The notes under the pieces were generated by a model. That model did no database searches. It worked only from the letters and a program-made list of their open reading frames with translations, and was not told where the DNA came from. The position numbers and the translations under genes are program-made. A stretch of DNA of 64,000 bases, from NCBI RefSeq assembly GCF_032854445.1, contig NC_088300.1:37848458-37912457 (forward strand). Reading direction: 5' to 3'. The stretch comes from Liolophura sinensis (taxonomy: Eukaryota > Mollusca > Polyplacophora > Chitonida > Chitonidae). Shown piece by piece: positions 15,141-58,800 of this stretch. Position 1 is the first letter of the stretch. Each line of letters begins with the position of its first letter.

Positions 15141-15395
15141 TTGCTATAATGCACATCCCAGGAGCCGCTCACCAATGCAATCGCCGTGAGTTCAAGTCCA
15201 GCTCATACTGGCTTCCTCTCTGGCCCTACTTGGAAAGGCCTTTCAGCTACCTGCGGATGGTCGTGTGTTTCCCCCGGGCTCTGCCCGGTTTCCTCTCATC
15301 ATAATGCTTGCCGCCGTCGTAAAATTGAAATATTCTTGAGTTCAGCGTAAAACACCAATCATGTAGTAGAAGAAAAAGTAATAAATAAATAAATA
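15141..15395 (+). mobile_element. SINE copy in transporter A intron 2, with a foreign patch in its tail
   Basis: Matches the main SINE from the B box (GTGAGTTCAAGTCCAGCTCA) through TATTCTTGAGTTCAGCGTAAAACACCAATC, ending in (AATA)n. The tRNA head is eroded. Between CCAATC and the (AATA)n tail lies a patch whose 20 bases at 15358-15377 are identical to 14169-14188 in transporter A exon 3. Confidence 0.8.
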
Positions 15396-17317
15396 ATGCA
15401 GAGCGCAGAAGAGTTTTGAACGAAGGGAGATAACAACCGTTTACCACATCAGATCGGTAGGTTACACCACCTCATTGACTTTCCTTACTATTACACTGCA
15501 TGTATCCCCAATCCAGGATGTCATTGTGGCAGTATTATCCAATCAGTGCACCAACACTCTTCAATTTGGCGTCAAACCTAGTGCCCAGGTACAAAAATTG
15601 CGCCTTTACCTCCATAACGCCTGAATAAAGGTTACTAAGCATGGACTAGAACGTCAAAAAAAAAAGATCAAAATGATCAATATTTTCATTTAAGCTTAAG
15701 AAATCGGTGAAAAATTTAAGGAATCGGAATGAGAGTGTTTCTTGGAGTATCCTTGATAGTATACATCTACGGTGCTCGTATGGATACATCTACCGTGCAC
15801 GTATGGAAACACTGGAACACCTTAAGCATTGTTCTTGTTACATATTAAAAGCTTGTTTTAAGGATTTATCTATTTTAATGTCACAAAAAATGTTCAGAAT
15901 ATTATTACGTTAAAATGTAACATGAAAGGCCAGTTGAAGCATCCACATTATCACACGTATGATGTTACACGTTTAAAATGTGAAATATAAAGCAATGAAA
16001 AGGATTCTTGGCGCCATTCCTTCTGATTTCTTTTCATCTGTTCAGACTCTTACCTGAGCTTATTCCTCCATGAGCGATGCCCTCGACCAGGAAGAGAAAG
16101 CGAGGAAATCCAGCGTTGTGACCCATGGTTTGGTGACCACACTGAGTGCCACGAGGGACAGGACAAATCCGAGAAGCAGATCCCCAGCGTTGCTGAATCG
16201 GTCCCGGAGGTAGCCGAACGGCATCGTGCCCACCATTTTGCCAATACTCCGGAATGCTAGAGCAAAGCCTACGCTGTCGTAATCTGTGTGAAGACGTTCA
16301 CACAGGTCTGGTATTGTAGGTCCCGTGACGCCACTATATAGGCCCTGTATTAAATAGAACAACAATTCTCAGAGAAGAAAATTCCTGAAATGTAGTTAAA
16401 CAATTATCAAAACATGGCTTGAGCAGGAGGCTTACAAGACTGTGATAACGCTTTATGTGACTTTTCTATTTCAAATATAGAAATGTAATAGATACATAAA
16501 AAGATATAAACTGGAAGTATATGTAAGCATACAATTCAAAGATAAACCGAACTTTGGATGAAACTATCAGAGTCTCTGCTTCAAAGAATTTATTCAGTTA
16601 CGCACTTCACATTGCTACTTCACAAGGCTTGTGTGTGCATTCGTGCCAGCGTCTTGTGAGCAGCCTGACTGAACAGCCATCGTGTGGCTTACGTTCAGCC
16701 AATACACGGATTTCATCAATTCAAGTAGATCAACTGGCTGCATAGGCCTACATAGATGGAGGAAAGTGTTTATGCTAGATCAATATTTGTAGCCTGCGTT
16801 GTACCTTAATACCTACATGTAAACTGAAAAGAAATTTTGTCACTCTTTCAGAAGACAAATATAGGCCTGTTTTTCTATATCACCACATCTAAATAAGCTC
16901 ATTGTTTTATTTGTTAAGGAGCAAAGCAGTCAGAAGCGTTATTCATGTTGAAACTTTTCCTCTGACCCGCGAGGTCACCTGCTCAAATCCAGGTTACAAA
17001 CTTGACAGTTATTCAATAAATGAAAAAATTTAGAGAACGACCAGAGACACCACTAATTAATGAATTAATATCATTCATATGATTCTTGTTTTACCCTATT
17101 TTTAAATTACACCATAGCGATCATTTTCCTGGTTGGAAGAAACAGGCGTGCCCAGTATGAACCACCAACCTTTGGCAAGCTTCAGACTAACTTGTCTATT
17201 GGTGGAATACAAGTGGTCTTCGATGAAGGTTAAAGACAGCACACACGAGCTTCTTTGACAGCTTATACTCACGGATGCCCCACAAACAGCGAGAGCGGCG
17301 GAATCTATAAACTTCCT

Positions 17318-17410
17318 GACAAAGGTCTGGTTTGATCTCGCACCTCGTGTATCCTAGAGGCGGAAAGACAAGCGCCTTCGACCAACAGACCAGGGCCCGC
17401 TCTCCTAAAT
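17318..17410 (-). mobile_element. tRNA-like SINE head, second family
   Basis: On the minus strand this reads GGGCCCTGGTCTGTTGGTCG (A-box-like), then AAGGCGCTTGTCTTTCCGCC, then GGTGCGAGATCAAACC (B-box-like). It is a degenerate tRNA-type Pol III promoter of about 75-90 bp inside transporter A intron 1. Its middle and 3' part align with the 45-bp satellite unit at 42052-43240. Confidence 0.55.
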
Positions 17411-17659
17411 CTTTTAAAACCTCCTGTTATTATTAACGCACTAATAAGCATGGCCTTTCTCTGAGCATGCCAAGCATACCATACAAATCCAGGTGACAAC
17501 CAGGCAGACGGATTTCATGACTTTAAACTTGAGAGTCTCGCCATCGGTGGTCAGATGAGCACTTTCCATGATCTTGCGTGCACCACCCATAACGCCCTCT
17601 GCCTCCGGTCTGACCACGTTCCTTGACCGACTAAAAACAGCCTCGGAAATATCCGCCAT

Positions 17660-18415
17660 TTATTGTACTGTTTCTGTAGTACAGGGTTACCAATGCAATA
17701 GGCACGTCCTCACCCCTGCACCTCTCTTCTCTATTCCCAGCTTATTTTTGGAACCAATCACGCTCCGGAAGGCTGAAGTTACATTCTCCAAGCTGTCATT
17801 ATCTGTATGAAGTTGTTCTCGCAGCCCTGCTCTTCCACATTCTTTTACACCACTATTTCGTCCCTATTATTTAAAACAATAATTCTCAAGGAAGAAGTTT
17901 TACAAATATAGTTAGACGCTGACCAAAGAGCAGTTCACAGTTGCCTTTGTTGCAGCTGAACTTATTAGCTTATTTTAGGTGATTTTCCAAGACCTTCAGG
18001 GTTATAAATAGGTGTAGGTCAACGTAGATACGCGAAGAACATAAAAAGTGTTCCGGTACGTGTTGTAGTGAACAGCAGACTGTTATTAGGCAGCATTATA
18101 GCTGACGAAAGCCTGCAGTTGTTTGTTGTGACACACAAATGAACCTTTTGTAGTGCTTTTCGGATGTAATTCTATATACGACGACTTACCCGTGGGTATC
18201 TGTTTACTGATATGACGTTTTGTCAAAACCCGTGGGCCTTTTAGGTCAAGGCAAGTAAAACAGCAAGCGAGATGAAAACATGATGTATTCATGATGTTGT
18301 CTACAATGATATTAGGAATATATATATATACCAGGCTGCACGTTATGTGGATACAGATAAATCTACGTCTTTCCTGACCCTTGTGTACTGGTGGAAAACT
18401 AGTGGTCTTCCTGAA
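17660..18415. other. Upstream region of transporter A
   Basis: No coding exon recognised. It should hold the minus-strand promoter of copy A. I see no clear TATA box. A short (TA)n lies near 18320. Confidence 0.4.
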
Positions 18416-19340
18416 CTGTGTATTGTAACATCCCCTTTAAACCGAGGAAACCCTTTGTTGAACTGTGTATTGGAACACGTCATTTAGCCCGAGTATACCC
18501 CGTCTTGAGATGTGTATTGGAACACGTCACTTAGCCCGAGTAAATCCCTTCTTGAAATGTGTATTGGAACACGTCACTTATCCCGAGTAAATCCCTTCTT
18601 GAAATGTGTATAGACCGAGTAAACCCCGTCTTGAGATGTATATTGGAACACGTCACTTAGCCAGAGTAAACCCCGTCTTGAGATGTGTATTGGAACACGC
18701 CACTTATCCCGAGTAAATCCCTTCTTGAAATGTGTATTGGAACACGCCACTTAACCGTGGAAACCCCTTCTTCAACTGTGTATTGGAATACGCCACTTAG
18801 CCCGAGTAAATCCCTTCTTGAGATGTGTTTTGGAACACGCCACTTGACCGAGGAAACCCCGTCTTGAGATGTGTATTGGAACACGCCACTTAGACCGAGG
18901 AAACCCCTTCTTGAACTGTGTATTGGAACACTTCCCTTAGCCCTAGTAAACCCCGTCTTGAGATGTTTATTGAAACACGTCACTTAGACCGAGTAAACCC
19001 CTTGTTGAAATGTTTATTGGAACACGCCACCTAGACGGAGTAAACCCCTTCTTCAACTGTGTATTGGAACACGCCACTTAGCCCGAGTCTACCCCTTCCT
19101 AAATTGTGTATAGACCGAGTAAACCCCTTCTTGAAATGTGTATTGGAACACGCCACTTAGCCCGAGTATACCCCGTCTTGAACTGTGTATTGAAACACGT
19201 CATTTAGACCGAGTAAACCCCTTGTTGAAATGTTTATTGGAACATGTCGCTTAGCTCGAGTAAACCCCGTCCTGAACTGTGTATTGGAACTGTGTATTGG
19301 ACACGTCACTTGGCCTGAGTGTGCTCTCCACTTAGTTCAG
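18416..19340. repeat. 46-47-bp tandem array (tier 1)
   Basis: About 19 units of the type TGTGTATTGGAACACGCCAC + TTAGCCCGAGTAAACCCCTTCTTGAA, 46-47 bp each, with frequent point differences and some truncated units (such as around 18601 and 19110). It lies directly between the two transporter paralogues. It grades into tier 2 through a partial unit around 19277-19340. Confidence 0.9.
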
Positions 19341-20791
19341 GAAGAGTTTTCTCACATTGTATATTGAAGAGATCAGTTAGTCTGAGAAAACCCTTCCTAA
19401 ACTGAGCACTGGACGCATCACTTAGTCTGAGTAAACGCTCCTGTACTTTGTATTGAACGTTCCACTTAGTCTGAGTAAACTCTTCCTAAATTGTGTATTG
19501 GACACGCCACTTAGTCTGAGTAGATCCCTCTTAAACTGTATATTGGACACGCCACTTAGTCTGAGTAAACTCTTCCTAAACTGTGTATTGGACACGACAC
19601 TTAGTCTGAGTAGATCCCTCTTAAACTGTATATTGGACACGCCACTTAGTTTGAGTAAACTCTTTCTAAACTGTGCATTGCACACGACACTTAGTTTGAG
19701 TAGATCCCTCTTAAACTGTGTATTAGACACGCCACTTAGTCTGAGTAAACCCCTCCTAAAACTGTGTACTGCACACGTCACTTAATCTGAGTAAACCCTT
19801 CCTAAACTCTGTATTGGACACGCCACATATTCTGAGTAAGCCCTTCCTAAACTGTGTGTTCGACACGCCACTTAGTTTGAGTAAACCGTTACTAAACTGG
19901 GCACTGGACACACCACTTAGTCTGAGAAAACCCTTCTTAAACTGTGTACTGGACACATGCCTTAATCTGAGTAAACCCCTCCTAAAACTGTGTACTGCAC
20001 ACGTCACTTAATCTGAGTAAACCTTTCTTAAACTCTGTAATGGACACGCTACGTATTCTGAGTAAACACCTCCTAAACTGTGTGTCCGACACGCCACTTA
20101 GTTTGAGTAAACCGTTACTTAACTGAGCACTGGGCACACCACTTAATCTGAGAAAACCCTTCCTAAACTGTGTATTCGACACGCCATTTAGTCTAAGTAA
20201 ACCCACCCTAGACTGCGTATTGGACAGGCCTCTTATTTTGAAAACCATTACTAAATTGTGCACTGGACACGACACTTAGTCTGAGTAAACTCGTCCTAAA
20301 CTGTGTTTTAAACACGCCACTTAGTCTAAGTAAACGCTTCCCAAACTGTGTATTGGACACACCACTTGGTCTGAGTTAACCCTTCCTAAACGTTGTATTG
20401 GACACGCCATTTAGTCTGAGTAAACCACTCTTAAATTGTGCACTGGACACGTCACTTATTCTGAGAAAACCCTTCTTAAACTGTCTATTGCACACGCCAT
20501 TTAGTCTGAGTAAACCCTTCCTAAACTGTGTATTGCACACGCCATTTAGTCTGAGTAAATCCTTCCTAAACTGTGTATTGGACACGCGATTTAGTCTGAG
20601 TAAACCCTTCCTAAACTGTGCACTGGACACGCCACCTAGTCTGAGTGAACCCTTCCTAAACTATGTATTGGACACGCCACTTAGTCTGAGTAAACCACTC
20701 TTAAATTGTGCACTGGACACACCACTTAGTCTGAGTAAACCCTTTCTATACTGTGTGCTGGGCACCTCACTTAAATTGGAGCCTTTCCTAA
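19340..20791. repeat. 45-bp tandem array (tier 2)
   Basis: About 32 units of CTGTGTATTGGACACGCCAC + TTAGTCTGAGTAAACCCTTCCTAAA. The unit length of 45 is a multiple of three, so both strands keep long open frames of repeated 15-residue blocks (such as LDTPLSLSKPFLNCV on +). These are by-products of the period. Some units alternate in pairs around 19500-19740, which suggests higher-order amplification of a two-unit block. Confidence 0.9.
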
Positions 20792-21324: not shown

Positions 21325-21560
21325 GGCATTTAGTCTTGGTATGCCGTTCCTGACCTGTGTTACAGGCACGGCACGTGGTCTTGGTATGCCCTTCTTGACC
21401 TGTGTTCCGGGCACGGCACTTAGTTGTGGTATATCTTTCCTAACCTGTGTTCTGGGCACGGCACGTTGTCTTGTTGTGCCCTCCGTGACCTGTGTTACGA
21501 TCACGTCTTTTAGCCGTGGCATATCTTGCCTGACCTATACGTGTTACGGACACGGCGATC
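21325..21560. repeat. 45-bp tandem array (tier 3, diverged)
   Basis: Five units of about 45 bp (GTATGCCCTTCCTGACCTGT + GTTACAGGCACGGCACGTGGTCTTG). Rotated, they align with tier 2: ctgtgt-a-ttggacacgccacttagtctgagtaaacccttcct against ctgtgttac-gggcacggcacttagtcttggtatgcccttcct. It therefore looks like an older or outlying branch of the same satellite. Confidence 0.8.
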
Positions 21561-21827: not shown

Positions 21828-24800
21828 CTATTTTTCCTTCGATTCACCAGTAGTCTCTTGTTTATCCGCCGTGTGTCTGTCGCCCCGATTGTTCCCAATG
21901 ATCTGAGCAATGATTATGGTAAGGCACAGAATACCAGCAGCAGAAAACGTGAAATACAAGAAAGAACGCGGTCCAAGATTACTAATGAGATACCCAGACA
22001 TCCAATTTGAGACGAACGCTCCAACACCGTTGCCTACATCAAAGATGGCGACGACCAGTCCATACAGCGGAACATATCGGTCCACCCAGGCTACGCCTGA
22101 GGGATAAATTGGACCGAAGAAGAAAGCTAGGGAACAGGAGAATATCCACAGTATGAGGCGCTTGTCGTAACCATAGAAAGTTATAATTGCGGAGCATCCA
22201 GCCATCAGATAGACCTCAGAGAATAATATGTATTTTACAGGAAGCTTATGGGCCAGCAATCCCATGATGGCTCGGCCACCCGCATAACAGGCGTAAAATC
22301 CCGTGTTCAGATAAGCTGCTTCACTTTTCGTGAATCCAGTGTTACTCTCTACGGCGTACGTGAATAGAAAGGAGCCCAGAGCTCTGTCAATGGCGGTAGT
22401 CATCATGTAATACAGGAAAAAGAGAGCTAAGATAGACACAGCACTCTTCGGGCGATCTTTTAAGAACGGTGCGTCGCAAGGTTTTGAATAAGAGCTGCTT
22501 CCAAAACGGGCAGTCAATTTTCGAAACGGTTTATGGAAAAAAAATCCAACATAGGCCATACCAATAAGGAGGATGAATCCGGACACGATGGCGTAAGGTA
22601 TTTCAATCAAGGATTCCTTTATAATTATGTCTTCCTCCTTAAATGTCTCGTTGGCTGTGTGGTTTGAAAAGGTCAGATTAAACTCAGCAGTAACATTGGA
22701 ATCTAGTGTAAGGTTCTTCCTGTATCCATAGTAACCAATGTTGGATGCGTTCCCCGAGTCCACCGTCACGTTTATGGTCTGGTGTTGGGACAGGAAAGGT
22801 CTGGCAATCAGCGGAGAAACCAACGCTCCGAGTCCATAACCAAAGTGGAGCAAGTGCACAGGCAATGCCGCGTTTTCTTTCCACATTAGTACGCACATGG
22901 AATTGCCCACTATAAAAATGAAAAAAAAGTTTTAACTGTGAGATAACTTTGTGCAACATCAAATGTTTAGCGCAGCCTCCCCCCCCCCCCCTCTCCCACC
23001 ACAGATTTCAAAAACCTTTGTACAAAAACAGCTCAATTTAAGTTCATACCATGTTTTGTGGAAAGGCACCTAGAAGTTTATGTGAAGGCAGGATATTAAC
23101 TGAGGTAGATCAGTAGTCAACCGTAAAACTAGAAGGATCTCTGTGCGTGGACACGGGAAGAGCATTTGCCTTATCGAGACAAAATTGGACACTGATATAC
23201 AAAAAAGACTGTCGAGCATGACGACAAATAGCTGTATTGGTACTACGAAATATCATTCCGAAAATTAAGAAATACATATGAAAGATGACCCTCACAAATA
23301 CTTTGCTGACGTAACTTCCAAAAACGATGTAATGTTTTATTTCATTTGAATTTCGTATTTGCCTAACTTCTCATCGTTTAGAAACTATTCATTCACTATT
23401 TATTTACTCGATGGGTACTTAATTCGGTACTCAAACTTGTTTAACTTATACAAAGGCGGCAAGGTTTATGGATTTTGGACGCCAAAGTGCCACCGAATTT
23501 CGCTAGATACCTCATAAACCTCCTGACTTCAGTTAAAACTTAGAAACCACCAGGGCCTATTGGAAAAGAAATTTTAGTCACAAAGGGTCGTACGAAAGAA
23601 AGCTTTTCAAAAGTTTATACTTAAATATTTTGATTCTCTTAATTACTTGTCAGTTTTGATTTCACGACAGAGTTTGTAGTGTACAAGATTTTACTAAGCG
23701 GCGTAAAGGTCAAGTAGCTCGGCAGGTAAATAGAAGGATAGTGTTATGCACGCCTATGTATTTACCCCGATCATTTCTGTGGTGCAGTAGAACTGTTTAC
23801 GTGGCATACGTCACCAATCGATGTACACTGTGCCTCACCTTATACTGTACTCGATATACATGTAAAACAGTATGTGCCTCACATTATACTGTACTCGATA
23901 TACATGTAAAACAGTATGTGCCTATCACTATACTATACTCGATATACATGTAAAACAGTATGTGTCTCTCACTATACTGAACTCGATATACATGTACTTT
24001 GACTTTGACTGTTTCTTTGACTGTAGATATAAATGCTACAACATATTTCTAATTCCATTTCGAATACCAACCTGAGTTTATTCCACCGTGGGAAAATCCT
24101 TCCACAAAGAAGAGGAAGGCGAGTAAGCTGACTGTGGGTACCCAGGGTTTGGTGACGACGCTGACAGACACCACTGCGAGGGCTACTCCCAGCAGCAAGT
24201 CACCTTTACTACTGAACCTGTCCCTCAGATAACCACATGTTAACGAGCCTAACATTTTCCCAATGCTGCGGAAGGCCATTGCAAACCCCACGCTATCATA
24301 GTCTGTGTGGAGGCGTTCGCCAAGGTCTGGCACTGTTGGCCCTGTTATTCCGCTGTAGAGGCCCTGAAATATATTCGTGCACGCACTTAATGAATAAATG
24401 CTTGTGACTGAACGCTTATACACTTCCTGTCTTATGCTGGTTAATGGTTACGGGAAAATGACAGTGGTATTTTGGCCTCTAAGTATTTTGTTATGTTAAA
24501 GGGGCCCTCGCTAAATCGTAGTTTCCCCGCGGTCTATAGCGGCCGCTGTACCATGGGGAATAAACATTGAACTCTCTCCTCGCTGTTTCCATTACAGCTT
24601 TAGGTTTTGGGGGTACCTGGCCGATAACATCGATAACATCAGTTCCCACAGGAATATGTAGAAATACTATGCCAATTGGAAATAAAGTTTGTAACATGAA
24701 GCAGTCATCACTTTTCCATGATGTGCGGGAAAATGTCGTTATTCTAGGCATCGATATCCAAGCAAAATTTGAAACGCATAATCTGTAGATAAGTTGATGC

Positions 24801-30823: not shown

Positions 30824-30834
30824 TTATTTGGATT

Positions 30835-31100
30835 TATTTATTTATTTGATTGGTGTTTTACGCCATACCCAAGAATATTTCACTTATACGACGTTTGCCA
30901 GCATTATGGTGGGAGGAAACCGGGCAGCGCCCGGGGGAAACCCACGACCATCCGCAGGTTGTTGCAAGACCTTCCCACGAACGGCCTGAGAGGAAGCCAG
31001 CATGAGCTGGACTTGAACTCACAGCGACCGCATTGGTGAGAGACTCTTGGGTCATTACGCTGCGCTAGCGCGCTAACCAACTGAGCCACGGAGGCCCCTT
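30835..31100 (-). mobile_element. Full-length tRNA-headed SINE with target-site duplications
   Basis: On the minus strand it begins GGGGCCTCCGTGGCTCAGTT (A box TGGCTCAGTTGG). The B box is GAGTTCAAGTCC, and the conserved body ends in TTGGGTATGGCGTAAAACAC then CAATCAAATAAATAAATA. TTATTTGGATT flanks it at 30824-30834 and 31101-31111 as an 11-bp perfect target-site duplication. This is the reference copy for the SINE family in the window. Mobilisation would depend on a partner LINE. Confidence 0.9.
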
Positions 31101-32701: not shown

Positions 32702-33134
32702 TCGACGTCATAGAAAAAGTTCTGCAGGAGTCACTTTCGTGGCGGAATGTGGTGTCCATTTGTACTATAACAAAAACTGGAACAATTTCTGGTTAACTGT
32801 TCCTGGACTTTTGGACAGGTTTTCATTGTTGTCTTGAACGTCCGAACAAACCTCTCTGCTTCTTCACTGCGTTGTCGGAAACAATATGTTCTGGAATACC
32901 ATATGCTGAAAATAACTTCACAAGGGCATATACAGTTGCATTAGCTGTTGTTTCTTTCATGGGTTTTACTTCCGGCCACTTGCGTCAACAGCAATCAGAA
33001 ATATTTGATATAGGAAAAGCCCAGCATAGTCTGTATGTACCCTTTCAAATGGTCGACTAGGCGAAATCCCTGAATTAGTTCGGGTAGATGGTTTGGTCGG
33101 GTTGTCATGAGATGGGCACACAATTTCTCACCTG

Positions 33135-33353
33135 CTACTCTATGTCGTCATCTCCCCAAAGCAAACATCCTTCCTCATAAGTTAATTCGTCTCGCTTCTG
33201 GTAGTAAGGTATCAGTTCTTCTGGTATTTGGTTCTTCGTAGGCCAACTACAAACACAAAATCGTTTCACTCTAGCAAGAATGTTGCTTCTGGCTGTAGCA
33301 TGGCTAACTTGAATGGCATTGACCGGCAAACTGTTTACATGATTGTAGTTCAA
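33135..33353 (-). pseudogene. Integrase N-terminal region fragment, copy 1
   Basis: The frame contains SWPTKNQIPEELIPYYQKRD and ELTYEEGCLLWG, the linker that precedes the zinc-binding domain of gypsy integrases. A stop follows. The second, identical copy is at 35319-35537. Confidence 0.75.
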
Positions 33354-33545
33354 AAAATTTGCTTCCTTAGTCCAGATATCAGTTTAATCCTTTTTGCTGT
33401 ACTGGGTATGGGCAAGCGGGGTAATACATCTGCAGTGGCGTTTGTTTTGATGACCTGTGCTTTATCTCGTACTAATATGCTGCCAATTTAATGCCCCAGC
33501 GTTGCATGCGTGAGGCTGCCAAGGATAGGGATACATTTCTTGTCC

Positions 33546-33743
33546 TCAAGAATCATGGTTAACGGCTTGTGCTCCGTTATTAACGTGAATTTGTTCCCAT
33601 ACAAATTGGTGAAATCTCAATATACCAAATACAATTGCTAGAGCCTCTCGCTCTATTAGCGAATAATTTCGCCCAGCTATAGTTAATGCTCTTGATGCCA
33701 AGGCAATTGGCCTTTCCTCGCCATCAATGGTATAAGAACACAC
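33546..33743 (-). pseudogene. RNase H fragment of the gypsy element, copy 1
   Basis: Contains ERPIALASRALTIAGRNYSL and EREALAIVFGILRFHQFVW, diagnostic of the gypsy RNase H domain. The later catalytic part is disrupted. Identical to 35730-35927. Confidence 0.85.
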
Positions 33744-33803
33744 TGCTCCTATTTTTCTGTTGCCAAAGTTAGTGGTTTCCCAGGGTCCAAGTGAACCAAT
33801 ACA

Positions 33804-34472
33804 TCACTTGATATTAGTGATTGATCCAAAAATGAATGGAACGTTCTTATTTAACAGTTTGTTAAGTGGAGCTGTAACAGTGCTTAGATTAGGCAAGAAT
33901 TTCCTGTAACAGTTGATCAGTCCAAGCAGTGATTGCACTTCAGCTTTATTCTGGGGCTGTGGTGCTTCTTCAATGGCTTGCACTTTGTCGGGGGATGATC
34001 TGATTCCAACAGCGTCAAACACAAACCCAAGGAATTTGATGAATGCCGACCTACCCTTTTTAAGTTTAATGTTGAACTCCTCAGAACGTTGTAACACATT
34101 TCTCATGTTTTCACAGTGTTCTATGTCGTTAGTGTCCATGAAATTTGCTACATGTGAGCCTGTTAATCCGTACAAGACTTTATCCATGGCCTGTTGAAAT
34201 AAGGCTGGTGATGCCGAAACACCAAAGGGTAATCTGATATACCTGTAAAATACTTTATGGGTGTTAATGGTGACATATTTCTTAGACTCTTCGTCAAGCA
34301 GAATTTGCTGATCGGCATGCGATATGTCCAACTTGGTGAATTTCTGTCCACCATTCAATGCTGTAAAACGTTCCCCTAGTTTCGCAGTTGGATATTCAGG
34401 AACATCTAGCACAGGGTTCAGTGTGATTTTATAATCAGCGCAAAGACGCAGAGTATTGCCAGGTTTCATCAC
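33804..34472 (-). pseudogene. Reverse transcriptase of the gypsy element, copy 1
   Basis: A 222-codon frame has LRLCADYKITLNPVL, FTKLDISHADQQILL, LPFGVSASPALFQQAMDKVL and SLLGLINCYRKFLPNL, all landmarks of Ty3/gypsy reverse transcriptase. The active-site box that is normally Y-x-D-D reads FMDTND, so one catalytic position is altered. A TAA interrupts the frame just upstream (about 34488). Identical to 35988-36656. Confidence 0.9.
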
Positions 34473-34833
34473 TGGTACAGTTGGAGTAGCTTAGTCAGGA
34501 TAATCCACTTTTTCCAACACACCTGTTCTTTCTAACCTGTCCTGTTCATCGGAGATTTTATCTCTTTCGGCATGCAGTACTGGGCGGGCTTTGTAGAACT
34601 TGGGCTGTGTACTTTCCTTTACCTGAAGGTTTTTACTATTCCCAGCTTTCCATCAAACACATTTTCGAATTCTTTGAGTAAAGAATTCTTATCAGTCATT
34701 GTGTTTACCTGTCTGATATTACTCCAATCCAATCTAAGTTCTCCCGACCAAACAATAATGGACTACTTTTCCTGGCACAACCCACAAGTTAAGTTTATTC
34801 TTCAGTTTCTGATAATCCACGGCAACCAATACT

Positions 34834-35100
34834 TCTCCCTTACTTGCACAGATCACATAATAATCGGATTAAATCCCAGTTGAGAGGTTTATCTCAGCGT
34901 TCCATTTGTACAACGCGGTTTTCAGGGGAAATGGAGTTTTAGCGCATTACTTGCGGGTAACAAATCAAACTGCTCATATAGATATTTACCTAGGAACATA
35001 TACTACAGATTCCCTTTGGTATTCATTGATATTATATATACAGGTGATCTATATACTCTATCTAAATATTTCCAGATCTAACTGTGGGTGACGTTGACGT
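34834..35100 (-). repeat. Putative 5' LTR remnant of the gypsy element, copy 1
   Basis: The part at 34834-34970 is homologous to 32216-32345 at the other end of the element, in the same orientation. This is the relation expected of two LTRs. The exact LTR ends are not visible. Confidence 0.5.
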
Positions 35101-35117
35101 GGGGGACGCAGAATAAA

Positions 35118-35165
35118 CACCTTTTTATTTATCTGATTGGTGTTTTACGCCATATTCAAGAATAT
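35118..35165 (-). mobile_element. SINE 3' end, truncated by the duplication junction
   Basis: Reverse orientation: TTTTTATTTATCTGATTGGT + GTTTTACGCCATATTCAAGAATAT, then an abrupt switch to retroelement sequence at 35166. The same SINE continues past this point only in copy 2 (37302-37435). Confidence 0.85.
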
Positions 35166-35318
35166 GCGTCAACAGCAATCAGAAATATTTGATATAGGAA
35201 AAGCCCAGCATAGTCTGTATGTACCCTTTCAAATGGTCGACTAGGCGAAATCCCTGAATTAGTTCGGGTAGATGGTTTGGTCGGGTTGTCATGAGATGGG
35301 CACACAATTTCTCACCTG

Positions 35319-35537
35319 CTACTCTATGTCGTCATCTCCCCAAAGCAAACATCCTTCCTCATAAGTTAATTCGTCTCGCTTCTGGTAGTAAGGTATCAGT
35401 TCTTCTGGTATTTGGTTCTTCGTAGGCCAACTACAAACACAAAATCGTTTCACTCTAGCAAGAATGTTGCTTCTGGCTGTAGCATGGCTAACTTGAATGG
35501 CATTGACCGGCAAACTGTTTACATGATTGTAGTTCAA
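35319..35537 (-). pseudogene. Integrase N-terminal region fragment, copy 2
   Basis: Identical to 33135-33353, shifted by 2184 bp. Confidence 0.75.
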
Positions 35538-35729
35538 AAAATTTGCTTCCTTAGTCCAGATATCAGTTTAATCCTTTTTGCTGTACTGGGTATGGGCAAG
35601 CGGGGTAATACATCTGCAGTGGCGTTTGTTTTGATGACCTGTGCTTTATCTCGTACTAATATGCTGCCAATTTAATGCCCCAGCGTTGCATGCGTGAGGC
35701 TGCCAAGGATAGGGATACATTTCTTGTCC

Positions 35730-35927
35730 TCAAGAATCATGGTTAACGGCTTGTGCTCCGTTATTAACGTGAATTTGTTCCCATACAAATTGGTGAAATC
35801 TCAATATACCAAATACAATTGCTAGAGCCTCTCGCTCTATTAGCGAATAATTTCGCCCAGCTATAGTTAATGCTCTTGATGCCAAGGCAATTGGCCTTTC
35901 CTCGCCATCAATGGTATAAGAACACAC
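35730..35927 (-). pseudogene. RNase H fragment, copy 2
   Basis: Identical to 33546-33743, shifted by 2184 bp. Confidence 0.85.
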
Positions 35928-35987
35928 TGCTCCTATTTTTCTGTTGCCAAAGTTAGTGGTTTCCCAGGGTCCAAGTGAACCAATACA

Positions 35988-36656
35988 TCACTTGATATTA
36001 GTGATTGATCCAAAAATGAATGGAACGTTCTTATTTAACAGTTTGTTAAGTGGAGCTGTAACAGTGCTTAGATTAGGCAAGAATTTCCTGTAACAGTTGA
36101 TCAGTCCAAGCAGTGATTGCACTTCAGCTTTATTCTGGGGCTGTGGTGCTTCTTCAATGGCTTGCACTTTGTCGGGGGATGATCTGATTCCAACAGCGTC
36201 AAACACAAACCCAAGGAATTTGATGAATGCCGACCTACCCTTTTTAAGTTTAATGTTGAACTCCTCAGAACGTTGTAACACATTTCTCATGTTTTCACAG
36301 TGTTCTATGTCGTTAGTGTCCATGAAATTTGCTACATGTGAGCCTGTTAATCCGTACAAGACTTTATCCATGGCCTGTTGAAATAAGGCTGGTGATGCCG
36401 AAACACCAAAGGGTAATCTGATATACCTGTAAAATACTTTATGGGTGTTAATGGTGACATATTTCTTAGACTCTTCGTCAAGCAGAATTTGCTGATCGGC
36501 ATGCGATATGTCCAACTTGGTGAATTTCTGTCCACCATTCAATGCTGTAAAACGTTCCCCTAGTTTCGCAGTTGGATATTCAGGAACATCTAGCACAGGG
36601 TTCAGTGTGATTTTATAATCAGCGCAAAGACGCAGAGTATTGCCAGGTTTCATCAC
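35988..36656 (-). pseudogene. Reverse transcriptase, copy 2
   Basis: Identical to 33804-34472, including the altered active-site box and the upstream stop. Confidence 0.9.
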
Positions 36657-37017
36657 TGGTACAGTTGGAGTAGCTTAGTCAGGATAATCCACTTTTTCCA
36701 ACACACCTGTTCTTTCTAACCTGTCCTGTTCATCGGAGATTTTATCTCTTTCGGCATGCAGTACTGGGCGGGCTTTGTAGAACTTGGGCTGTGTACTTTC
36801 CTTTACCTGAAGGTTTTTACTATTCCCAGCTTTCCATCAAACACATTTTCGAATTCTTTGAGTAAAGAATTCTTATCAGTCATTGTGTTTACCTGTCTGA
36901 TATTACTCCAATCCAATCTAAGTTCTCCCGACCAAACAATAATGGACTACTTTTCCTGGCACAACCCACAAGTTAAGTTTATTCTTCAGTTTCTGATAAT
37001 CCACGGCAACCAATACT

Positions 37018-37284
37018 TCTCCCTTACTTGCACAGATCACATAATAATCGGATTAAATCCCAGTTGAGAGGTTTATCTCAGCGTTCCATTTGTACAACGC
37101 GGTTTTCAGGGGAAATGGAGTTTTAGCGCATTACTTGCGGGTAACAAATCAAACTGCTCATATAGATATTTACCTAGGAACATATACTACAGATTCCCTT
37201 TGGTATTCATTGATATTATATATACAGGTGATCTATATACTCTATCTAAATATTTCCAGATCTAACTGTGGGTGACGTTGACGT
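37018..37284 (-). repeat. LTR-like remnant, copy 2
   Basis: Second copy of 34834-35100 within the duplicated unit. Confidence 0.5.
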
Positions 37285-37301
37285 GGGGGACGCAGAATAA
37301 A

Positions 37302-37435
37302 CACCTTTTTATTTATCTGATTGGTGTTTTACGCCATATTCAAGAATATTTCACTTATACGATGGCGGCCAGCATTATGGTGGGAAGAAACCGGGCAGAA
37401 CCCGGGAGAAACTCACAACCATCTGCAGATTGCCG
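37302..37435 (-). mobile_element. SINE fragment (3' half)
   Basis: Reverse-orientation SINE from the (TTTA) end through GCCAGCATTATGGTGGGAAG to the CCGCAGGTTG-like region. The tRNA head is missing. Its first 48 bases are duplicated at 35118-35165. Confidence 0.8.
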
Positions 37436-40945: not shown

Positions 40946-42040
40946 CAGTGGTGTGGAGTAATTCTGTTACTCAAGTGTTTCTCTTTTATTAGTCAATATA
41001 ACTTTGTAGGCTATGTATACAACGTCAGAAGCAGACATTTCTACTCATACTAGTTTACTGAGCTACCGAACGACCGGGAAACGTGGTACCAGCAAGAAGC
41101 GTAAGCGCTGTCGGTAAGAATGAACACAAAAACAAAACTGTACTCGACAATACCTCAACGTAAACATATAGCTTTGTTACTGCTCTACATTCGACATTAC
41201 AAACACTGAGTAGTGTATAGCATGTGTTTAGCCGTTTAAACATTACTTTCATTTTACACAGTTACGAAATCTAGTCAACTGTTGACAACAATATCAGTAA
41301 AGACCTACTGCATGGAGAGTAAAACCAGACCATCGACGACAGTGTGATAGCTGGTCACACCAGTGAAATACGACCTCTTGTCAATTTACTTCAGTCAGGG
41401 TTTGATTCTGAGTGTTCATCTAAATGTATAAATAGTAACGATTTACACGCTACCTAGTACTTAAGGAGAATTAGGTAAAAAAAAAAAAACCCAAAAAACC
41501 CCAAAACAGTGATGTCGGCAATTATTGGACGTTACTGGTCTAGAATTACTCAGAATACTGTATTGTCATCACATAGCTCATTAAAACAGACTCCGTGTTC
41601 GTAATACCAATTAGTCAACGTCAGAACAACAACAACAACAACATTGTATATAAACTGTTCAGTCGCCAGTTGGTTCAATCTGTGTTTACTTACAACATTT
41701 CTTGACAGCCTTGTGTAAAGTACATCAGATGACGTCCATCAAAACACGATCTAAAACTGTGAATTGACTGTTACATGGGTATGACTGTATATCGTTTTAC
41801 TGAGCCATGTTGGATTCTTGGTCACAATAAAAAATCTTAACCCTAAAACTGACGGATCGGAAGGTATATGATTGAGACGACAGCTGGGATTGATGTGGTA
41901 TGACAACTTTATTTTCCAGTCGTTAAACATTGTCTGGACAATATTTGCAGGACGCTGTGATGGATTGCCTTTATATTTTCGGGTAGTGGTTTGACATTGC
42001 TAATTGATGATTGTTTTCCAAATGTAAATCAGTTGTCCAA
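40946..42040. other. Non-coding stretch
   Basis: Contains an A-rich tract near 41480 and (CAA)n at about 41627-41645. Nothing else is supported. Confidence 0.4.
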
Positions 42041-42051
42041 GTTCCCTCTCT

Positions 42052-43240
42052 TTGGCCTGGGTTGAACTCGCACCCCGTGTGCTAGTGACTGAAAGGCAAG
42101 CAGCTTCATAACTCGCACCCCGTGTGCTAGTAACTGAAAGGCAAGGAGCTTGATAACTCTCACCCCGAGTGCTAGTAACTGAAAGACATGCAGCTTTATA
42201 AATCGCACCCTGAGTGCTAGTGACTGAAAGGCAAGCAGCTTGATAATTTGCACCCCGTGTGCTAGTGACTGGAAGGCTAGAAGTTTTATAACTCTCACCC
42301 CATGTGCTAGTGACTGAAAGGCAAGCAGTTTTATAAATCGCACCCTGAGTGGTAGAGACTGAAAGGCTAGCAGTGTTATAACTCTCACCCCGTGTTCTAG
42401 TGATTGGAGGGCAAGCAGCTTGATAACTCGCACCCGGTGTGGTAGTGACTGAAAGGCATGCAGTTTTATAACTCCACCCGGTGTGCTAGTGACTGAAAGG
42501 CGAGGAGTTTTATAACTCTCACCCCGAGTAGTTATTGAAAGGTAAGCAGCTAGATAACACGCACCCCGTAAACTAGTGACTGATAGGCAAGCAGCCTGAT
42601 AAATCGCACCCCGTGTGCTAGTGACTGGAGGACAAGCAGCTTGATACTCGCACCCCGTGTGGTAGTGACTGAAAGGTAAGCAGTTTTATAACTCTCACCC
42701 CGAGTGCTAGTGACTGAAAGGCAAGGAGCTTGATAAATCGCACCCCGTGTGCTAGTGACTGAAAGGTAAGCAGTTTTATAACTCTCACCCCGAGTGCTAG
42801 TGACTGGAAGGCAAGCAGCTTGATAACTCGCACCCCGTGCGGTAGTGACTGAAAGGCAAGCAACTTGATAACTTTCACCCCGAGTGCTAGTGACTGAAAG
42901 ACATGCAGCTTTATAAATCGCACCCCGAGTGCTAGAGACTGAAAGGCAAGCAGCTTGATAACTCGCACCCTGTGTGCTAGTGATTTAAGGCAAGCAGCTC
43001 GATAACTCTCCAACAGTGTGCTAGTAACTGAAAGGCAAGCGGCTTGATAAATCGCACCAAGGGTGCTAGTGATTGAAAGGCAAGGAGCTTGATAACTCGC
43101 ACCCCGTGTGCTAGTGACTGAAAGGCAAGCAGTTTTATAACTTGCACCCCGTGTGCTAGTGATTGAAAGGCAAGCAGCTTGATAACTCGCAACCCGAGTG
43201 CTAGTGACTGAAAGACAAGCGGTTTTATAACTCTCCCACG
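42052..43240. repeat. 45-bp satellite array resembling part of a tRNA-like SINE head
   Basis: About 26 units of CTCGCACCCCGTGTGCTAGT + GACTGAAAGGCAAGCAGCTTGATAA. On the minus strand each unit reads CTTGCCTTTCAGTCACTAGC then ACGGGGTGCGAGTT, the anticodon-arm to T-arm part of a tRNA-like sequence. The first unit extends into GGGTTGAACTCGCACCCC, the complement of a B box (GGGTGCGAGTTCAACCC). The array runs straight into a SINE at 43241. The 45-bp period keeps long frames open on the minus strand (repeats of VIKLLAFQSLA), which I regard as by-products. Confidence 0.9.
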
Positions 43241-43425
43241 AGTGCTCTCGCCAATGCGGTCGCTTTGAGTTCGTGTCCAGCTCATGCTGGCTTCCTCTCC
43301 GTGGGAAGGTCAGCCAGCAACCTGTGGATGGCTCTGCCCGGTTTCCTCCCACCATAATGCTGCCCGTATAAGTGAAATATTCTTGAGTACAGCGTAAAAC
43401 TCCAATCTAATAAGTAAATAAAAAG
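43241..43425 (+). mobile_element. SINE copy at the end of the 45-bp satellite
   Basis: Starts at CTCTCGCCAATGCGGTCGCT (just before the B box), continues through CCAGCTCATGCTGGCTTCCT and ends TATTCTTGAGTACAGCGTAA + AACTCCAATC(T)AATAAGTAAATAAA. The tRNA head is missing, replaced by the satellite. Confidence 0.85.
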
Positions 43426-43599
43426 AAATGTTACTGCTTCCTTTGAGTTATTTAAGCCCGTTTGAAAAGTAGGTGTACGCTAATGAAAACTGGATCCATT
43501 AGCCGATTGACGGGTATGACTTCGCTTCCAACGCTCTAAGATCTATTACCCCTAACCAGAACATCTTATTATAACGTACACATGTTCTCTATATGGAAA

Positions 43600-43955
43600 G
43601 AGTGAGTGAGTGCTTGGGGTTTAAGGTCGTGCTCAACAATTTTTCAGTCATATGACGCCGAAGGAATCCTTAGGGTGCATGTACGTGTAATATGCCTCCT
43701 TGTTGCAGGACGGATTTCCACCGCTCTTTTATCTAGTGTTGCTTCACTGAGACGATTTACCAAAGCCATGTAAGCCGCCCCGCCCGAGCCATTATACTGA
43801 TACGGGTCAACCAGTCGTTACACTATCCCCTTCATGCCGAACGCCAAGCGAGGAAGTTACAACTTTCTCTTTTAAAGCCTTAGGTGTGACTCGATCAAGG
43901 ATTGATTCTGGATCTACCAGTCCCGAAACGGACGCTCTACCAACTCTATATGGAA
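43600..43955 (-). mobile_element. Second SINE family with tRNA-like end
   Basis: About 350 bp. On the minus strand it starts with an A-box-like AGTTGGTAGAGCGTCCGTTT and a B-box-like region around GATCCAGAATCAATCC. The + strand reads TTTTTCAGTCATATGACGCC, CCTCCTTGTTGCAGGACGGA, and GAGCCATTATACTGATACGG. A fragment of the same family is at 55965-56090, which proves it is repeated. Confidence 0.65.
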
Positions 43956-44217
43956 AGACATGTCTATGGTAACAAAAAAGGGTACGTGGGTATGAAAATC
44001 CGGGTGATCAGTGGAAAATTCTGGGAAGATATGACTTATTCTTAATTTGTTTTCTTGATCTTCATCTTAAACCGTATGGAAATTATTTTTGGAATGGAAT
44101 CTTTATTTCATACAGTTTAGAGACGGGGTGTTCCAATTTGATAAACTAACAAGGTTAGAGCTTCAGGAACAATGCAGGAAGATGGTCATGATAACTAGAA
44201 GCCTTCAAACAACAGAC

Positions 44218-46361: not shown

Positions 46362-49300
46362 TCAGAGTTTTTCCGAGACTTCATCAAACCCTCTGTTGTC
46401 CTCTCCGTAAGACATTCTTGGCATGATTTTCGGTGAGGACATATTATTGTTTTTGTTCATCCCTTTCAGTTCACTCTCCTCGCGTTTCGGGTCTGGGATG
46501 GTCAACGACATTTTGCGGATGTTGTTCGTCTTGACTTGATCCAGCGATTTGGTCACGGGCATCTTCCTCTGGCGACTCGGTCGGTATTTGTATAAGTAAA
46601 CCTCCACAGCGAGGGTTAGCAGCCCCAGGCCCGTGCCGATGACGATAACGAGGAAGACGCCCCCTATGTTATTGATGCTGATACCGTCAGTTTCACTTTC
46701 CACTTCCGGGCAATTCTTCTTCTCGTGCTGCCACCATCTTGATTTCAACTCCTCCAAATAACGCTGGTTTAACAGCTGAAGAATCCTGGAAATTACCAAT
46801 TCAGATCAACTTCAGGGCAGTTTAGTTCAGAATTTACCTTGTGACAAATTTAATATCGATTGGCTTTTATCTTTAAAAAAAAAATTGACCAGTTATAATT
46901 CAAAAATTCAAGAAAATCTCTTGGCACCATGGGATTTCCAAACAATTATATTGTACAGCGATGATTTTTATTGATCTATTACCTTTGCTTTATTTAATTT
47001 ATTTAAATAGGGTTTTACACCTATACTCAAGAATATTTCACTTATTCGACTTTTTTACACCTATACTCAAGAATATTTCACTTTTCCGACTTTTTTTACA
47101 CCTATACTCAAGAATATTTCACTTATTCGATGGGGGCCAGCATTATAGTGGGAGGAAACCGGGCTGAGCCCAGGGGAAACCCACGACCAACCGCAAGTTG
47201 CTGACCCACCCATGTGCTATTTTGAATCTCCACAATACTGTGGCAATCAGTATAACATATCTTTTGTTTGACTTTGAACCAAACCGATTAGAAATGAGAT
47301 AATCACAATCGGTTATAATAATTGCTTGACGGCATGTTAGTTTGTATATAGAATTTGTATTACTAACACATTGGAGATCTCGTTTTTGAGTGGGGAACCT
47401 TCCTGCACAGCTAAAGCATAAGGTTTCCGACTGAACTCTTCGCCCACCTCCCACAAGTCGCAGTCATGTAACGTGGCGTATTTGTTCGAAGTGGCGTCTC
47501 CTGAAAAAGACATTTGTTTATCTGATATGGGATTTACAATCTACGCAAAAAAAATTTTTCATACTACATCGGTTGAACAATGGAAATCTTTATGTTTGAA
47601 AGCATGTATGACTCATCAGTCATGTTTTAAATAGCTGGAGGTCGGGTGTCAAGTTCATTTTGTGATATGCCTGTAAGTATAGCCCAAAGCATTGTCTCAC
47701 AGGAGAGGCAATGTTACCCACCACATTCATTAAAGGATGCGCACATGTAAGGAAGCCCAGTGCCGCCATTTTTCCATCGAGCTGCGAGCAACATTTTCGT
47801 TGGTATGTCACTCCTTCATCTATCATAAAACCTAGTTTTGTCGCGTTGTCGCCGTGTCATACTTAAGACAGGCAGACACAAGCAGAAAATGTCGCCATTT
47901 TAAAGTCAAAGTGGCATGGGTCTCTACTTTTTATACATTCGCTAACAGCACGACAACGGGACATTTTTATCTTAAAAAGGTTGCGTTGTCGCTTTCTCTT
48001 CCTTTGGGAATTGAAATTAAAAACGTCGATACTTTACTGTAAACTGGTGCGTGTATATATCTCGCCATGTAGTATTGGTTAGATCCTGTGTGCTATGTAA
48101 TGATTTCAATCAACGTCAGAAGTTATTACAACAAAAACTACTGTGTCAAGGTTATTCCATCAAACGCTTTCGTAAATTTCACATTGCGTATAATTCTCTT
48201 GTAAGTAAATATGGACAGAGCGTTCAGAATTTCTTGCACTCTGCTTCATCAGTGTGTTTAAATCCGCTTAACCCGGGGCCAGGAGCTATATATTCATCGT
48301 GTTGAATTAGATCGCCACATTTAAAATCTGACTAGTTGCAATCAAAGCGCAACTGAGATACATATAGAGATTATCATAACAGTGTGTGATCCTAGAGCCG
48401 GGTTCGAAGAGCGTACGTTTATGATAATCTGTTTATCATATACCTTTATTTTTGCGTAATAAGTGGTCAAAACACAATGGTTTTTCATAAATCAGTAGAC
48501 CGACTAGCTACAACCTGCACCGACAAAATGTAGTTCATCTATAAATAAGCATAATTTCTTCAGCATGAACATGATTATGTTCTTTAGACGTCTATTTCTT
48601 TGGTTTCAATTGCAAACTAATTCAAATAAATCAAAATAGTGAACTTTCAAGAGCTTAGATTATTACAAGGTCGTGACTTCATGTAACACGGTTAAATCCC
48701 TACGCCACAGGCCTCCCGTCACTCTCTGCCGTCCGGTGAGAGAGACCTGGGTTATGCTAACAAAGTTTCAACATGTGGTATGGTTTAAAATCACATCTTG
48801 TGTGAAGGGAACGGCTACAGTACATAGTGATGACTGGATGACATTGATGTAACGTCTGCATTTACTGAAAATATTATCCATAGCCACTGATCGAGATTGG
48901 CTGTAGCTCCGGTGACTCCACTGAAACTTTTTAAAAGGAGTAGTGAACGTTGATCATGGGGCATCGGTAGAAATTAATGATGGAACTACTGACGACTGTG
49001 TGTGAACGCCGAATATATTTGCTATTTTTACTGTTTACATTCAGAAGATGGGAAGACTAAAGACGCCGGCTTCATGGAAACGGTAGGCCTAAATTTCGGA
49101 TTTATGTGACAAATTTATTCGTCTTTGAGTGAAACGAGATCAGATCACCGACTGTATGGGATTGATCAACACGTGAATATTTATCTGCGCGAACTTGTGT
49201 TTAAGTTGCTTAGGGGACAAAGTTAAGGATTTTCGTCACGAAGGTCAGTCGTATTTTCACTGAGCTTTAATAAATGCCGCGACGTTGCAGTGCTAACCAT

Positions 49301-55800: not shown

Positions 55801-58800
55801 TGTAGTTGAATTCGGTGAATTTGGTAAGATTAGCGAAAGCCTCTGCCAGGAGGACGGTCAGATCGAAGACAAACGATTTATCGACCTAAGTAATCAGTAA
55901 GCAAGGAACATGTCAGAAACAAGCATGTGTTTAACAGAACAACATCAAATAAGCCACAGTTCGAGTGAGGGGGTGAGTACTTGGAGTTTAACGTCGGACT
56001 TTTTTTTTCAGACAATTTTTCAGTCATATGACGACGAAGAAATCCTCAGAGTGCATGTATAATGTGCCTCCTTGTTGCAATTCAAAGTTCATCGTCTCGT
56101 TTGCATGTCTGTTCTTCGGCCTGTGTACAATGAGAATACAAGGTAAGACTTGCCAAGACTGGGAGCAGATCGTAGCCACAAATACAGCTACTGAGATCTC
56201 CAAAAACTGGAAGCAAACCGCAGACTAATACACACCCACTGACATCTCCAAAACTGGAAGCACACTGTAGCCACAAATACAGCTTTTGAGATCTCCATAC
56301 CTGGAAGCAAACCGTAGCCACAAATACAGCTTTCGAGATCTCCAAAACTGGGAGCAAACCGTAAACTCATACACAACCACTAACATCTCCAAAACTGGAA
56401 GCAAACCGAAGACACAAATACAACTATTGAGATCTCCAAAACTGGAAGCAAACCGTATACACATGTACAATTATTAAGATATCCAAACCTGGAAGCAAAC
56501 CGTAGCCACAAATACAGCTTTTGAGATCTCCAAAACTGGAAGCAAACCGTAGCCACAAATACAGCTTTCGAGATCTCCAAAACTGGAAGCAAACCGTAAA
56601 CTCATACACAACCACTGACATCACCAAAACTGGAAGCAAACGGAAGACACAAATACAACTATTGAGATCTCCAAAACTGGAAGCAAACCTTATACACATG
56701 TACAATTATTGAGATCTCCAAAACTGGAAGCAAACCGTAAACTCATACACAACCACTGACATCTCCAAAACTGGAAGCAAACCGAAGACACTAATACAAC
56801 TATTGAGATCTCCAAAACTGGAAGCAAACCGTATACACATGTACAATTATTGAGATCTCCAAAACTGGAAGAAACCGTAGCCACAAATACAGCTTTTGAG
56901 ATCTCCAAAACTGGAAGCAAACCGTAAACTCATACACAACCACTGACATCACCAAAACTGGAAGCAAACCGAAGACACTAATACAACTATTGAGATCTCC
57001 AAAACTGGAAGCAAACCGTATACACATGTACAATTATTGAGATCTCCAAAACTGGAAGCAAACCGTAGCCACAAATACAGCTTTTGAGATCTCCAAAACT
57101 GGAAGCAAACCGTAAACTCATACACAACCACTGACATCACCCAAACTGGAAGCAAACCGAAGACACTAATACAACTATTGAGATCTCCAAAACTGGAAGC
57201 AAACCGTAGCCACTGATACAGCTACTGTGATCTCCAAATATGGAAGTAAACCGTGGACACACACGGAACTATTTGAGATATCTAAAACTGGAAGCAAACC
57301 ACACAAAGACGACTATTGAGATCAAGAATTCCATACAAATAAGCTTTCCTACTCTGGATGCAAATTGGACATTGGAACTAAGCCTATACATGTGTCCGTA
57401 AAAATCGGTTTAACTGCCTTAGTGACCTCCGCTTGTGTTGGGTTAATAAACTTTTTACGTTTGCTGAATTACTTACATTGACGAAATATCGACTGTACTT
57501 GGGGTTGAATGTCTTCATAAACTCCACGTATTTGTTAGTAGCTTCCAATGAGCCTTGGGCATTGCCACTGATAACGATGATATTCATTTTCTTACGACAG
57601 TTGGAACAGAACACACGAGAACTCTGAAATGAAACACAAATAATACACTGTTGTATTAAGGCCTAGAATTGAGACTGCTGGGCCATCACGCTGCGCTAAC
57701 GCGCTAACCAACTGAGCCACGGAGGCCCCAGCCTAGAATTAAGATTGTGAATGTTGACTACTTAGTAGTTAACGTGTAGGTAATTTACTTACTTTTGTGA
57801 GAACAAAGAAGCTGTACTTGTTATCAGCCAACCCGTCCCGATTAGCCTGTAAGACAAGAGAGAAGAGCTATTGAGCTATACCTCATATAGGAGGAATTTC
57901 CAAAATTCACATGCCACCCATGAACCTCAAAATTAGACATCGGAAGGACCCTTATAACTGCCACCGAAACCCACTTCCCAAAATATGTGGAACCAAAACA
58001 TATTTACACAAGCTACTAGTATCTTTTGGTTGATTTAACTTATCTACCTTAAAGACAAAGGCCGTCACCATTGTTCTCTTGCGGTGAGAAGAGGAAAAAA
58101 ACATAAAAAAAACAATCCTTGGATCTCGAGGAGATCGTTACACTTTGGAGAGATGATGATAATGCTTAAACAGTTAAACTAAGTGACTTGCGAACTATTC
58201 AGTTCAGTTTACTTTCGGTTGTATCTGCGGGTTGTTTCTACATTTTTACCTCCAGGCTTGGTTGAAATTAACGTCAGATTTTAGATGAATGAAGGACAAC
58301 CATTTTTGGCTCTATTTTCTAATGCTAACAGAAATCTGAATCACACAGACACCTAACAATCAGTAAACGGAAGATTTACATCTTTGTTGCTTTTGTTGCT
58401 ATGAATACTCAAGATAATGTTGTAATAAAGTTCAGGTCACAGCGCAGGTCACACGCGATCACCAAGACCTGAACGTCATCGAGTTTGTCGCAGTAAGCCT
58501 TTCACCAGGCTTTGTCTTGTAAGCGGATGGTCCAGATTCGGAGACGACATACCCTGCCTGTTGTGAACTGGAGAGTTGTAATGTATGAGCAGAAAGATAC
58601 TAGACAGTCATAATGTTGACTTACCTGGCCCAAAAACTTCTCGGCGTTGGTGTCATTACAAACCAAGAAAAAGTTGGCCAGCTCAAGATCTTTGATCCTT
58701 TGCACCTGTTTGACCAGTTCTGCATCTGTCTCCGCCATGCGGAGGTACATATGCTCTGTGGGGATGTCCGTCAGGACTCGACGGGGCACATTTTGTAAGT

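Follow-up and report, generated by a model that had tools for sequence, protein, structure and literature searches.

SINE-derived satellites (sSats) have been reported in a survey of 56 squamate genomes (PMC10702118). As described in this survey, the terminal units of the sSats reach the SINE terminus, and the unit of the snake sSat, of 67 nt, covers the 3' part of the SINE head and part of the body. The existence of sSats outside squamates is left open by its authors. The growth of tandem repeats from scattered ones is thus a known and modest route, whereas the original prediction for the locus studied here had considered such a birth as uncommon. In amphibians, the tandems OAX/satellite 1 of Xenopus, Hy/PolIII of Hydromantes and PolIII/TAN of newts are claimed to originate from tRNA-related or SINE-like sequences (PMC9659126, PMC10702118). 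PMC9659126 ascribes these families to tRNA-related regions, and PMC10702118 considers the tRNA-related cases as inconclusive. Concerning shorter units, minisatellites derived from Alu, B1 or LTR elements are described (PMC9659126, PMC6947457), and in a published model a minisatellite starts between very short repeats that flank it, through slippage or unequal crossing-over (PMC6947457).

The locus described here is a tandem array of 45-bp units from the chiton Liolophura sinensis. It was analysed within a stretch of 64,000 nucleotides of contig NC_088300.1, hereafter the window, whose numbering is used throughout. The array (42065 to 43246, minus strand) displays several similarities with the squamate sSats as these are presented in PMC10702118: it is a tandem of a probable piece of a dispersed element, its terminal unit is longer at one edge and contains more of the source, and its homogeneity is moderate. 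Contrary to the squamate sSats, whose SINE families are known and multicopy, its source is represented by one sister copy with an only putative tRNA head, and its unit is shorter (45 bp) and devoid of an exact B box (PMC10702118). The minisatellites derived from Alu, B1 and LTR also have a short unit coming from a dispersed element, but their source element is known (PMC9659126, PMC6947457). The lengths stated for amphibian units (360, 250 and 200 nt) are all of about 200 nt or above, against 45 bp here (PMC9659126, PMC10702118).

Units, left edge and sister copy of the array

The tandem array of the original prediction is real: TRF detects it from 42065 to 43233 with a period of 45, 26.1 copies and 81% matches. 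A wraparound alignment extends it to 43246 and gives 26 full units, where an sSat has at least four tandem units, followed by one partial unit (43229-43246). In this alignment, each full unit displays 1 to 9 differences from the consensus, and the mean pairwise identity between units is 0.83 (range 0.64 to 0.96). Identity is flat over lags 1-12 (0.81-0.83), which rules out a higher-order repeat. Some two-unit blocks located 90 bases apart agree at 86 of 90 positions. Moreover, where the unit tail carries a variant with T at columns 39 and 42, the following unit has T at column 5 in 5 of 8 cases; for the tails devoid of the variant, the count is 3 of 17. Such a pattern is what slippage and exchange would produce in an array of modest size. 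Several minus-strand frames are open over long parts of the array, which was taken as low stop content and not as a coding origin; the longest frame (262 aa), the only one searched, has no Pfam match at E 0.001. The array appears to be a local minisatellite for which we see no proper function. In pairwise comparisons with seven other arrays of the window, its unit gave no score that was reached by at most 4 of 200 shuffles. Further arrays of 45-47 bp units are present at 18407-20756, 21325-21536 and 56153-57323, and are not detectably related to the 42065 unit. The unit at 21325 matches the 18407 array at 19783-19847 (score 40, maximum 28 in 40 shuffles).

One other place of the window is clearly related to the array unit. 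An alignment to 17318-17410 had been proposed, and it was recovered at 17324-17379 (minus strand), where 43 of 56 columns are identical to the first unit with its left flank (42054-42107). The blastn E value within the window is 3.7e-6, and the score of 44 compares with a maximum of 32 in 150 dinucleotide shuffles. Without the flank, the similarity of the unit to this sister copy is borderline (score 31, maximum 30 in 150 shuffles and 33 in another 40). The best match of the unit profile in the window, once the array is masked, is 17337-17373, weak when taken alone (nhmmer E = 0.082); compared directly with the stretch 17300-17420, the unit obtains a score that none of 200 shuffled units reaches. 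The sister copy is localized between minus-strand MFS_1 ORFs at 16368 and 21828. The minus-strand ORFs matching Pfam MFS_1 are 13598-14647, 16060-16368 (a match below Pfam's own cut-off), 21828-22931 and 24049-24447, and apparently correspond to two related transporter genes with introns.

The match with the sister copy runs 11 bases past the array edge. This remnant of the source (42054-42064, minus strand), recognised by its match to 17324-17335, includes a B-box-like word and constitutes a transition unit together with the first unit. From 42054 to 42065, 10 of 12 positions agree with 17324-17335, a likeness reached by 11 of the 127,992 12-mers of both strands, the two copies included. It is absent at the 25 internal junctions, where the left-edge register gives 2 to 5 matches when fixed and 4 to 6 with shifts of at most 4 bases. 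Because the match passes the array edge and is absent at the internal junctions, the unit represents an internal portion of a dispersed sequence of greater length. The first unit is thus a transition unit as in the SINE-derived satellites published for reptiles (PMC10702118), where the longer terminal unit shares source sequence beyond the repeat; here the shared part is the left edge with its 10 of 12 positions. Among the 26 units, the first is also the most similar to the sister copy; chance alone would give it this rank in one case of 26, and no gradient of likeness to the sister copy is observed along the array (Spearman 0.18, p = 0.37).

A search with a two-row profile detected no third copy of the source in the window at E below 1. 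The stretches located behind the two copies (41601-42054 and 16901-17324) are not detectably related, 192 of 200 controls scoring as high. Outside of the window, the exact source pattern has no match in viral contigs, a longer exact pattern has none in bacterial and archaeal genomes, and a distant blastn search of plasmids yielded none.

Nature of the source sequence

The original prediction had seen in each unit the anticodon-to-T-arm half of a tRNA, and in the array the product of a SINE head. From this reading, we retain that a longer sequence supplied the unit from its interior and is present to a greater extent at the left edge than in the units, whereas a tRNA or SINE source is not confirmed. 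No tRNA was found by ARAGORN, nor by Rfam at gathering scores. Lowering the ARAGORN thresholds stepwise gave 0, 0, 26, 201, 360 and 384 matches, and at the level with 26 matches none overlaps 17324-17379 or the array. With Rfam at E up to 10, no tRNA is present among the 13 matches listed for the whole window, nor in three narrow stretches (3, 3 and 0 matches). The silence of Rfam weighs little because Rfam is also blank on a textbook SINE head near 31018-31088.

The likeness to tRNA was scored against 21 tRNAs, over 5112 tiles of the window, with random window segments and shuffles as controls. For the sister copy (17323-17405), 18 of 300 random segments and 58 of 300 shuffles score at least as high, and the tiles of this copy occupy ranks 247 and 248 (counted from 0) among the 5112. 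For the first unit with its flank, these values are 17/300 and 43/300, and for the unit in tandem 66/300 and 141/300. The positive control, the head near 31088, is reached by 2 of 300 random segments and by none of 300 shuffles, and its tiles rank first among the 5112. The predicted fold is ordinary (z = -0.03, 89 of 200 shuffles at least as stable). The description of the unit as half of a tRNA is therefore not sustained: neither program finds a tRNA, the likeness is within the random range and the fold is no better than that of shuffles.

Since SINE heads drift away from tRNA, a decayed head of tRNA type may nevertheless be the source, with a probability that we place somewhat below even. 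Two dispersed copies are known, and a B-box-like word occupies the homologous place in both (GTTCAACCC at 42067 and GATCAAACC at 17337). An A-box-like word with one mismatch is located at 17384, 47 bases before the B word at 17337, but A-B pairs of such kind are common (13 in the window). The architecture of the edge is that of SINE-derived satellites; on the other hand, a body common to both copies was not found, as indicated by the 192 of 200 controls scoring as high. Taken with the silence of ARAGORN and of Rfam (itself blind to the textbook head), and with the tRNA likeness of the sister copy (18/300) and of the first unit with its flank (17/300), these observations leave a tRNA-derived SINE head, with the unit as its anticodon-to-T-arm half, as a tentative origin, not quite an even bet.

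The array could also be an older, unrelated satellite of which 17324 would be a dispersed monomer. Only two places are known, and the unit part alone could be such a stray monomer; however, the match passes the unit at the left edge and the internal junctions do not match, so that we consider this origin as unlikely. Judged by these alignments, 17324 is not a stray monomer, and both places hold a longer sequence with the unit as its inner part.

B-box words were searched with the consensus GWTCRANNC, exactly or with one mismatch. A complete B box at the first unit, lost from the later ones, had been announced and was indeed observed: the plus strand reads GGGTTGAACTCGCACCC at 42059-42075, and 42067 is the sole exact minus-strand match in 42050-43246. 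Within the repeat units, no exact B box is present and a single minus-strand site with one mismatch was detected (43049). The window contains 31 exact matches on both strands, which is the number predicted by uniform base frequencies (about 31). With no exact B box in the units, the suggested retention of part of a Pol III promoter in them is unlikely. That the array consists of Pol III promoter pieces in tandem and is still transcribed is very improbable: the exact B box of the left edge would agree with it, as would the minus strand of the array, which contains 11 A-box-like sites with one mismatch and is devoid of TTTT inside 42050-43246, but the units have no exact B box and only the site at 43049 with one mismatch, and 241 A-box-like words with at most one mismatch are counted over the two strands of the window.

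SINE family of the window and right edge of the array

A SINE had been placed directly at the array end, at 43241. This neighbour is indeed a member of a repeat family, but the similarity begins slightly earlier, at 43234-43235, within the last partial unit. The alignment to 31051-30833 begins at 43235 and the alignment to 15156-15360 at 43234; the stretch up to 43246 matches both the array and the SINE, the first 12 bases of the SINE overlapping the last partial unit. These alignments define a 5'-truncated and internally gapped copy (43235-43425, plus strand). Relative to the long copy, about 47 bases are missing from its 5' end (31098-31052 in the long copy), and gaps of 8, 18 and 6 bases are present. 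No target-site duplication was found, the longest word common across this SINE being of 5 bases. The longest copy of the family (30833-31098, minus strand) contains exact A-box and B-box matches to the consensus and the best tRNA-like tile of the window. We take the tail of this family to resemble molluscan SINEs (MetaSINE or V-SINE like). The tail pattern has no match in viral contigs.

A derivation of the unit from this adjoining SINE has very little probability: the last 12 bases of the array stretch match the array and the SINE alike, but the unit and the long SINE copy are not among the pairs reached by at most 4 of 200 shuffles, and the orientations are opposite. From the comparison of sequences, the SINE of the right edge is not detectably the source of the unit and appears largely excluded in this role. 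In terms of an identified SINE family, the unit has one sister copy, and the identifiable SINE of the window is not detectably its source.

The same SINE family is involved in another tandem repeat of the window. An array of 41-bp units (47013-47130, minus strand; 2.9 copies by TRF) comes from the tail of the family: its score against 30856-30896 is 55, with a maximum of 31 in 40 shuffles, and the SINE body, from the same copy as the tail, directly adjoins it. This tail array is a firmer case of passage from SINE to tandem repeat than the 42065 array.

Other repeats of the window were observed. On the minus strand, 57671-57729 contains only the 5' part of the SINE, the tRNA-like head, with 91.5% identity over 59 columns to 31040-31098. 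The direct repeat GCCTAGAATT is present on both sides of it, at 57661 and 57731, and nowhere else on the plus strand; this copy looks like a retroposed head without body. The sequences 43600-43707 and 55967-56079 form a repeat pair (78.6% over 117 columns), of which the former follows the SINE end at 43425 after about 175 bases and the latter precedes the 47-bp array at 56153 by about 75 bases. A tandem duplication of 2185 bases with 100% identity (32981-35165 and 35165-37349) has SINE tail sequence at its ends and contains a reverse-transcriptase ORF (33804-34490, Pfam RVT_1) in its first copy. This duplication is either very recent or an assembly artefact.

Birth of the array and its meaning

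The array is an ordinary repeat-derived minisatellite whose source family is not proven. It probably grew from the middle of a short dispersed sequence, by tandem duplication followed by expansion. A copy of this sequence would have been present at the locus on the minus strand, and slippage or end joining would have duplicated in tandem about 45 bases of its middle, between two similar short words, TTGA and TTCGA. In the sister copy, these words (at 17332 and 17377, respectively) are separated by 45 bases, a distance equal to the array period, and the left flank also contains TTGA, at 42062. The unit junctions read TTGATAACTCG or variants and the flank reads TTGAACTCG; this difference requires either a filler of two bases or a subsequent change. 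As evidence of a breakpoint, a word of four bases is weak. The initial pair may then have grown to 26 units as slippage continued and units were exchanged unequally, homogenisation remaining limited. At the left edge, the source still continues beyond the unit, and its right edge would have been lost at the present junction with the truncated SINE, which belongs to another family. A search of 43235-44200 did not recover the right-hand half of the source (score 18, with the highest control tiles at 19-24, the source itself aside). The dispersed source may be questioned from two observations, the existence of one sister copy only, which does not fix the full extent of the source, and the borderline similarity of the unit alone to this copy.

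The array and its transition into the source are present at one locus and the sister copy is located 25 kb away, so that the locus gives a direct view of how a tandem repeat is born. Concerning the existence of sSats outside squamates, the tail array at 47013-47130 is the firmer evidence of the window, and the 42065 array would contribute to this case only on proof that its source is a SINE. Tentatively, and with a little less assurance than for the decayed head itself, the source could be the head of an invertebrate (mollusc) SINE of tRNA type, and two independent tandem births would then have taken place from opposite SINE ends within about 5 kb. If this is true, the 42065 and 47013 loci would represent seeds of SINE-derived satellites outside reptiles.
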